From: an uncultured Prochlorococcus sp.
GTDB lineage: Bacteria; Cyanobacteriota; Cyanobacteriia; PCC-6307; Cyanobiaceae
Direction: 5' to 3'
Length of the DNA stretch: 64,000 bases
NCBI GenBank assembly: GCA_902628235.1
Contig: CACOMD010000001.1
Span: 1 to 64,000 of the forward strand
In this document: one piece after another, positions 1 to 3,551 of the stretch
Layout: every line of letters starts with the position of its first letter
How positions within the stretch are numbered: the stretch's first letter is position 1
Notes under the pieces: generated by a model
What the model saw: only the letters and a program-made list of their open reading frames with translations
What the model was told of the DNA's origin: nothing
Database searches by the model: none
Position numbers and translations under genes: made by a program

Positions 1-2044
1 ACTTGCTAAATTTTTTGCTATTTGTTCAGTTAATTCATAACTAAAACCTGATATTTTTAAAAGGCATACCTTACAAAAAGGAAATAAATTTGATGCTTTT
101 CTTAGCTTCAAATTTTCGTACAAAAAAGATTCATAATCTCTTTTTCTTAAATACGAAATTACTGGATGATTTGGCTGATATGTTTGAAAGATTACTTCAC
201 CATTCTTATCAGCCCTTCCTGATCTTCCTGCTAATTGAAGAAATAGTTGAAGTGATTTCTCTTCAGAAGATAAATCCGGACGATGTAGAAGCCCGTCTGC
301 TGCTAAAACTACTGAAAGTGTAACGTTTGGCATATCTATTCCCTTCGCAATCATTTGAGTTCCCACTATTACATCCGCATTCCCTTTGGCGAATTCATTC
401 AAAATCTTCCTATGCCCATCTTTGCCAGATGTAGTATCTCTATCAAATCTTAAGAGTCTTAATTGTGGTAGTTCATTACTAAGAAATTCAATTACTCTCT
501 GAGTACCAATACCGAATGGTTTAAATGCTGTTGAATTACATTCTGGACATGAATTGATAAAGGTCCTCTTAAAAATCACACCAGTGACAACTTAACCATC
601 TACCCCCTTTCTCACCTATATGAACAGTTAAAGCAGTATCGCAGTTTGGGCAATTTACGACATAACCACAATTTCTACAACTAAGGAAACCACTATATCC
701 TCTTCTAGGAACAAGAATTATTGCCTGTTCATTTTTGATCTTCAACTTTGAAAGAGAATTTAATAATTCATTGCTTAAAATTTTCGCATTTCCTCTTTTA
801 AATTCATCTCTCATATCTACAACTTTTATCTCAGGTATTTTGGTAGATGATATCCTTTCTGGCATTCGCATCATCTTGAATTTCTTTTCAAAATAAGCTT
901 TTTTCCAAGTCGATAACGAAGGTGTTGCCGTCCCAAATATAATTTTGGCATTAATCATTTTAGATCTATCTATGGCAACTTCTCTAGCGTCATAACACGG
1001 CATAGGATTTTCCTGTTTATAAGAGTTATCATGCTCCTCATCTAATATAATTATTCCCAAATTTTTTATTGGAAGAAAAATTGAAGACCTAGTTCCAATA
1101 ACTATAAGAGGTTCACTCGCATTTAAGATCTCACGCCAAACAGTCTGTCTATATTTTGGAGAGCAATTACTGTGATATTCAAATATGTTTTTTTTAAATT
1201 TTTCAGCAAATCTATCTATTAATTGAGGAATCAAACCGATCTCTGGAGCTAATATGAGGCAACTCTTTTTGAGGATTAATTGACTTTCTGCAATTCTTAA
1301 ATATACTTCAGTTTTACCAGATCCCGTTTCTCCCCAAAGTAATAAAGCTTCTCCATATTTCATATCTTGAATTCCTCTAATCGCCTTCTTTTGCTGAATT
1401 GTAAGTATTGGAATTGGGGTGGGTGGAGAGCTATTTATATAAGAATTTAAAGAAATATTTACTGTTTTTTGGCGTTTTATTTTATTTAATATCCCTTTAC
1501 TAATTAATATATTTATTTGATGTGAACTAAAACCTTGTTTAATTAATGTGCTTTGCCATACGCCCTTTTGGCTTTTTACTTTTTCTAATAATAAAGATTG
1601 TTTACTTGTTAATTTATGTTGTGATTTATCTCCATCATTATTAAAAGTTATCCATATTTTAGTAGATATTTCTGATCTAATATTTGATTTTCCAATCCAT
1701 CCAGGGGGTAAGGCAGTTTTAAACATTTTTAATTCACTTACTTTATAGAAAATGGCCATCTGCTCTATCCATTCTCTCCACCAAGGCTGAAAAACTTTTT
1801 TCTCTATAATTTTTTCGATAGATAAATATTTAAATTCAGCTTTTGAATTATTATGAAAAATATTCTTTTCTACCACCAATCCATTTACTAAACGACCTTT
1901 AATTCTTACAAGTACAATATCACCAATATCCACACCTAAATATTTATCATCAAGATAATCAAATCTATTGCTATATCTACCAAAATCAAGTAAAACACCT
2001 AATTTAATAAGCATCGAAGATTGATTATTAGTTGCGAGCTTCAA
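1..2044 (-). CDS. priA: PriA primosomal replication-restart helicase; frameshifted, 3' end beyond window
   Basis: PriA is a superfamily 2 DNA helicase that reloads the replisome at stalled forks. The first 491 codons give the N-terminal DNA-binding region, Walker A (GETGSGKTEVY, about residue 240), the DEEHD Walker B box and six cysteines of the zinc-binding loop (SCRNC, NCPNC, SCHWC). The frame then hits TAA at 569-571. The next frame continues without a break to the window edge, with the last cysteine pair (SCPEC) and helicase motifs (GTQMIAKGIDMPNV, LAADGLLHRPDL, LAGRSGR). Removing one T from a T5 run would rejoin the two. The extreme C-terminus lies outside the window. The ORF start is kept. 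Family assignment is firm; whether the break is real is not known. Confidence 0.9.
569..575 (-). other. Single-base frameshift site in priA
   Basis: On the coding strand the sequence reads TGT GAT TTT TAA GAG, so frame 0 stops right after Cys-Asp-Phe. With four T instead of five it reads TGT GAT TTT AAG AGG ACC and gives the expected CDFKRTF continuation between the sixth and seventh zinc-loop cysteines. The site could be an assembly or sequencing indel in a homopolymer, a true mutation, or a +1 slip on UUU-U before a stop codon. I see no Shine-Dalgarno-like stimulator just upstream of the kind found in prfB, so an indel is the simplest reading. Confidence 0.85.
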
Positions 2045-2372: not shown

Positions 2373-3551
2373 ATGTGTCCAATAGCTACAGAGTCTAAAA
2401 ATCCTAAGTCACGTTCTAAGAAAAAAATAAATAAGAATATTGATTTGACTGCAGTAAACCAAATGGAAAGCGTTAAGAATTTAGCAGGCGAAGTACATAA
2501 TCAAAAATCTGATAGCGAAAAAGAATCTTTGGATAACAGTGAATATAGCCTTACAGATGAAGAAGCAAAAAATCTTGGTAACATAAAACTTGGACCTAAA
2601 GGTACTTATACTGAGGATTCAATTAGAGTTTATTTGCAAGAAATTGGAAGAATTAGATTACTAAGACCAGATGAAGAGATTGAGCTAGCTAGGAAAATAG
2701 CAGATTTACTTCAACTTGAAGAATTAGCAACACAATTTGAATCTGAGAAAGGACATTTCCCCTCAGTAAGAGAGTGGGCTGAACTAATAGATATGCCTCT
2801 CTCAAAATTTAGAAGAAGGTTATTACTCGGCAGAAGAGCAAAAGAAAAAATGGTTCAATCTAATCTGCGACTAGTTGTTTCCATTGCTAAGAAGTATATG
2901 AATAGAGGTTTATCTTTTCAAGACTTAATTCAAGAGGGAAGTTTAGGACTTATAAGAGCCGCTGAAAAGTTTGATCATGAAAAAGGTTATAAATTCTCAA
3001 CCTATGCTACATGGTGGATTAGGCAAGCAATCACTAGAGCGATTGCAGACCAAAGTAGAACTATTAGATTACCTGTACATTTATACGAAACCATTTCAAG
3101 GATTAAAAAAACTACTAAAGTCTTAAGTCAAGAATTTGGAAGAAAACCTTCTGAAGAAGAAATAGCAGAAAGTATGGAAATGACTATTGAGAAATTAAGA
3201 TTCATCGCAAAAAGTGCACAACTTCCAATATCCCTTGAAACCCCCATTGGCAAAGAAGAAGATTCAAGACTAGGAGATTTCATCGAGGCTGATATTGAGA
3301 ATCCTGAGCAAGATGTCTCTAAAACCTTACTCAGAGAAGACTTAGAAGGTGTTCTTGCTACTTTAAGTCCAAGAGAAAGAGATGTGCTAAGGCTTAGATA
3401 TGGAATAGATGATGGCAGGATGAAAACATTAGAAGAGATTGGTCAGATTTTTGATGTTACAAGAGAACGAATTAGACAAATAGAAGCCAAGGCACTTAGA
3501 AAATTAAGGCACCCAAACAGAAACGGAGTTTTAAAAGAATATATAAAATAA
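2373..3551 (+). CDS. rpoD: Principal RNA polymerase sigma factor (group 1 sigma-70)
   Basis: This is the housekeeping sigma factor that directs RNA polymerase to -10/-35 promoters. The first 80 or so residues are a poorly conserved, charged tail. Region 1.2 starts near residue 82 ([16 protein letters not shown]), region 2 near 174, and the diagnostic RpoD box [19 protein letters not shown] near 204. The region 4.2 helix-turn-helix ([20 protein letters not shown]) starts near 352. At 392 residues it has normal cyanobacterial SigA length. The full RpoD box and the strong ribosome site argue for SigA over a group 2 paralog, though cyanobacteria carry several close relatives. Confidence 0.93.

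Follow-up and report, generated by a model that had tools for sequence, protein, structure and literature searches.

An extra base in the priA gene at the end of a Prochlorococcus contig: a probable technical error in an otherwise conserved gene

The window, the whole stretch of 64,000 nucleotides analysed here, belongs to the draft genome of an uncultured Prochlorococcus (the host) and begins at the first base of contig C1 (302,972 bases). The draft comprises 53 contigs with a completeness of 71% and is probably a single-cell assembly. The priA gene lies at this edge, on the minus strand, and is divided between two ORFs. The 5' part (569..2044) has 491 codons for 491 amino acids, with a TTG start called at 2044, and terminates in SCHWCDF followed by a TAA at 571-569. 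It encodes the 3'BD, the DEAD helicase domain 1 and the first six zinc cysteines. The continuation (1..579, minus strand), placed in the next frame, has 193 amino acids and contains zinc Cys7-8 and the helicase C-terminal domain. Its translation starts with MIFKRTFINSCPEC and runs without a stop up to the contig end. The gene of the principal sigma factor (2373-3551) is the divergent neighbour of priA, and it is also placed beside priA in the G083 draft.

The two frames part at a run of five T at 571..575 of the minus strand, read as A5 on the plus strand, and the TAA stop directly overlaps the end of this run at 571. The minus strand reads TGT CAC TGG TGT GAT TTT TAA GAG GAC C around the break. 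The cysteine layout, assigned by eye, is C-x2-C-x5-C-x2-C, then SCHWC and then SCPEC, which places the break inside the Cys-rich loop, after Cys6 (CHWC) and before Cys7 (SCPEC). The one-base frameshift between these two cysteines, as put forward in the preliminary description, is therefore present in the letters themselves: the T5 run, the stop and the two ORFs in successive frames are all there. As sequenced, Cys1-6 are in one frame and Cys7-8 in the next, and the record is therefore not put forward as an intact PriA. Long ORFs of the host genome (688 kb) contain about 4,500 A/T runs of five, about 1,550 of them T5 runs. Such runs are common and the one in priA is thus nothing special in itself.

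Both parts belong to PriA. The N-terminal part scores 298.9 bits against the TIGR00595 profile, above the equivalog cut-off of 230.35, and the C-terminal part alone scores 198.4 bits. The first half covers profile positions 1-250 and the second positions 256-439, in order and contiguous in the profile. PF17764 and PF00270 match in the first half and PF00271 in the second, in agreement with the earlier reading that both sides are open and carry helicase motifs. An intact PriA of 760 amino acids aligns with the first half at residues 1-504 and with the second at 500-690, and the protein identity of the halves to the PriA of the two nearest relatives is 92-98%. A search of the host draft for a second, intact priA found none. 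The last ~66 codons of PriA are unassembled because the window begins at the first base of the contig, a cause separate from the frameshift. Residues beyond 690, including the PriA_C domain, were not found on the other contigs of the draft, nor was the gene placed downstream of priA (a 367-aa protein) found in the draft.

The preliminary description suggested a comparison with other high-light Prochlorococcus strains, and the nearest genomes are, more narrowly, HNLC1 (G024 = GL947594) and four AH-287 genomes, G257 (E15), G256 (B22), G258 (E16) and G259. The DNA identity over the priA query is 96% for HNLC1, 95% for G257, 91% for G256, 90% for G258 and 89% for G259. All five align over 360 of the 361 query bases, i.e. 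they are one base shorter than the host. Their sequences at the site are TGTGATTTTAAG, TGTGATTTCAAG, TGTGAATTTAAG, TGCGATTTTAAG and TGTAATTTTAAG, every one in frame, with TTTT, TTTC or AATTT where the host has T5. The translation at this position is CHWC-[DEN]FKRT, and the stretch from Cys5 to Cys8 is in frame in every relative read. The PriA ORFs have 750-760 amino acids in G256, G257 and G258, and the one of G259 is open for 725 amino acids to its contig end.

Codon comparison indicates that selection has acted alike on both flanks of the break. Between the host and G257, dN/dS is 0.16 upstream of the break and 0.09 downstream. Against G256, G258 and G259, the values are 0.15-0.19 upstream and 0.07-0.11 downstream, and all downstream values of the host together range from 0.05 to 0.11. 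The baseline, given by G257 against G256, G258 and G259, is 0.16-0.18 upstream and 0.08-0.13 downstream. The part after the break has thus experienced normal purifying selection until now. A pseudogene undergoing decay was considered and rejected, given that selection is not relaxed and no further stop occurs up to the contig end.

The break is private to the host across the genus. A scan of 266 genomes for TGYCAYTGGTGYNNNNNNTRA, in which TAA or TGA follows CHWC by two codons, gave a priA match in the host only. Nine other matches to the pattern have unrelated sequence after its TGY and, where the place of priA is listed, are located on contigs other than that of priA. The search for intact PriA in the same 266 genomes returned single open frames throughout the approximately 150 matches listed, except for HNLC1; the broken priA of the host ranks below these matches. 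A priA match is present in 228 of the 266 genomes and in 85 of the 87 near-complete ones. The two near-complete genomes with no match are G120 and G161. The principal sigma factor, a neighbour of priA, is missing from both as well, and a contig edge cuts the second priA neighbour in G161. Partial priA genes in G247, G073, G200 and others have no internal stop, and several of them stop at the contig end. A tendency of the genus to lose priA is consequently rejected: the gene is present and open almost everywhere and the absences checked are mostly contig gaps. Phage records gave no match, and a literature search on frameshifts in single-cell genomes, on priA frameshifts and on AH-287 found nothing specific.

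The frame breaks of the draft were also counted by comparing 1.03 of its 1.23 Mb with the whole of HNLC1, where 1073 reference ORFs had matches. Among the 17 candidate breaks in the host, priA alone has differences clearly biased to the third codon position on either side, with counts of 11/15/30 and 5/0/18 at codon positions 1/2/3. Most of the other candidates reflect an extension beyond the end of a gene, an antisense ORF or a poorly conserved ORF; three to four of this last group, on contigs C8, C17, C13 and C4, are ambiguous. One weakly conserved HNLC1 ORF of 222 amino acids is interrupted in the host at C8:13467-14131 and may be a decaying gene. A host draft that is break-ridden in general is rejected, as the census contains no other clear break; this condition is apparent for HNLC1. 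The reciprocal scan, over the same 1.03 Mb, gave 140 candidate breaks in HNLC1, which is therefore the error-prone assembly, and caution is needed with any pseudogene apparent in it. Examples of the candidate coding frame breaks of HNLC1 are at L035:3390-3435 and in the region 263-365 kb, and about 20 were counted in ~145 kb.

The preliminary description had left three readings side by side. The comparative data favour a homopolymer error, leave a smaller share to a recent loss and turn against slippage, since T5 with the stop is found in the host only. A single-base error of amplification, sequencing or assembly is the most likely origin of the extra T (a probability of roughly 80%), because the T is private, the gene is otherwise intact and the break is at a contig edge. 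One T would have been inserted in the short T run of a normal priA during whole-genome amplification, sequencing or assembly, at a place of thin coverage 572 bp from where contig C1 ends, and the organism would make an ordinary full-length PriA. The base would be technical rather than a mutation of the cell, and the contig end would result from low coverage. About 2% of the surveyed bases are within 572 bp of a contig end, a figure computed after the case had been seen, and the closeness of the sole clear break of the draft to such an end is suggestive of error, not proof of it. The weighting includes the prior that a draft is presumably more often affected by a single-base error than a sampled cell is by a deleterious frameshift. 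On the other hand, the draft looks accurate elsewhere, with no other clear break, hence error is not rampant in it. Also against an error, single-cell assemblies of Prochlorococcus tended to contain fewer indels than those of the other test strains in a benchmark (PMC5519541). An error in the T run matters for annotation only: the draft should not be taken as a Prochlorococcus devoid of replication restart.

A recent and real frameshift, private to the cell or strain, is unlikely, though it is the stronger of the two alternatives. PriA would be truncated to 491 amino acids. It would retain only helicase domain 1 and part of the zinc loop and lack helicase domain 2, and the T run might allow leaky bypass. 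A single lesion with no further decay is what a recent mutation is expected to leave, and E. coli priA null mutants are viable, though sick. Indels in short homonucleotide runs, 5T included, are partly bypassed by accident at a low level measured in the laboratory (PMC3812077), and a real T5 allele therefore need not be fully null. Against this, the constraint downstream is not relaxed, a randomly sampled cell with a deleterious frameshift would be rare, and a real frameshift does not predict a position at the contig edge. The near universality of priA in the genus also counts against it, the neighbours of the gene being missing or cut by a contig edge in the two near-complete exceptions. If the frameshift were real, the host would be a streamlined cyanobacterium with no intact PriA, a rare occurrence, and nothing here supports this.

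A programmed or selected +1 ribosomal frameshift at UUU_UAA, of the prfB type, which would yield full-length PriA from the two frames, is very improbable, as the T5 site is private and the closest relatives need no shift, one of them encoding the Phe as TTC. The P-site tRNA-Phe could re-pair perfectly one base on, with the stop in the A site, and, according to a review (PMC5009743), a small minority of species use UUU_U for the RF2 shift. That a real T5 allele produces PriA by such re-pairing is given hardly any weight; if it did, the level of PriA in the host strain would be sensitive to termination efficiency. A T5 shared by many strains in a conserved stop context had been named as the mark of slippage, and the T5 with its stop occurs in the host alone. 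Transcriptional slippage by RNA polymerase is typical of A/T runs of about nine (PMC5009743), which counts against slippage at five T.

With the technical error as the preferred reading, the locus can be set against known systems. The two halves match, in order, the PriA replication-restart helicase (TIGR00595; PF17764, PF00270, PF18319, PF00271, PF18074). The host gene differs from the standard PriA, which has PF18074 among its domains, in that its frame is split by one extra base and its PriA_C domain falls beyond the contig end. Breaks by A/T-run indels in the priA of the HNLC1 and G083 drafts are likewise private and scattered in a gene otherwise conserved, at sites different from that of the host: the priA of HNLC1 is intact at the present site and broken instead around codon 136-144, and that of G083 (C9:6316-8558) has two frame changes at other positions. 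In a gene that is otherwise always open, the private scattered breaks in the three drafts look like error or chance mutation and not like a programmed site.

The same genome also offers a direct contrast. A prfB-like sequence on contig C33:2-622 has an internal TGA and the canonical programmed +1 site AGGAG-TAT-CTT-TGA-C, and a piece matching the end of the prfB profile is located at C1:302748-302972, the far end of contig C1; with its pieces on these two contigs, the gene seems to be split by an assembly gap. The +1 frameshift of prfB (RF2) and the priA break are alike in having a stop after a codon that can be re-paired in the +1 frame (CUU_U in prfB, UUU_U in priA). In priA, no Shine-Dalgarno-like AGGAG precedes the shift codon at a distance of a few bases, as it does in prfB; TTT is preceded by TGGTGTGAT, where the conserved CHWC codons constrain the sequence. 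The priA site thus differs from that of prfB in having no such stimulator at the right spacing, in not being conserved in any other priA of the 266 genomes, and in the UAAG that stands where prfB has UGAC.
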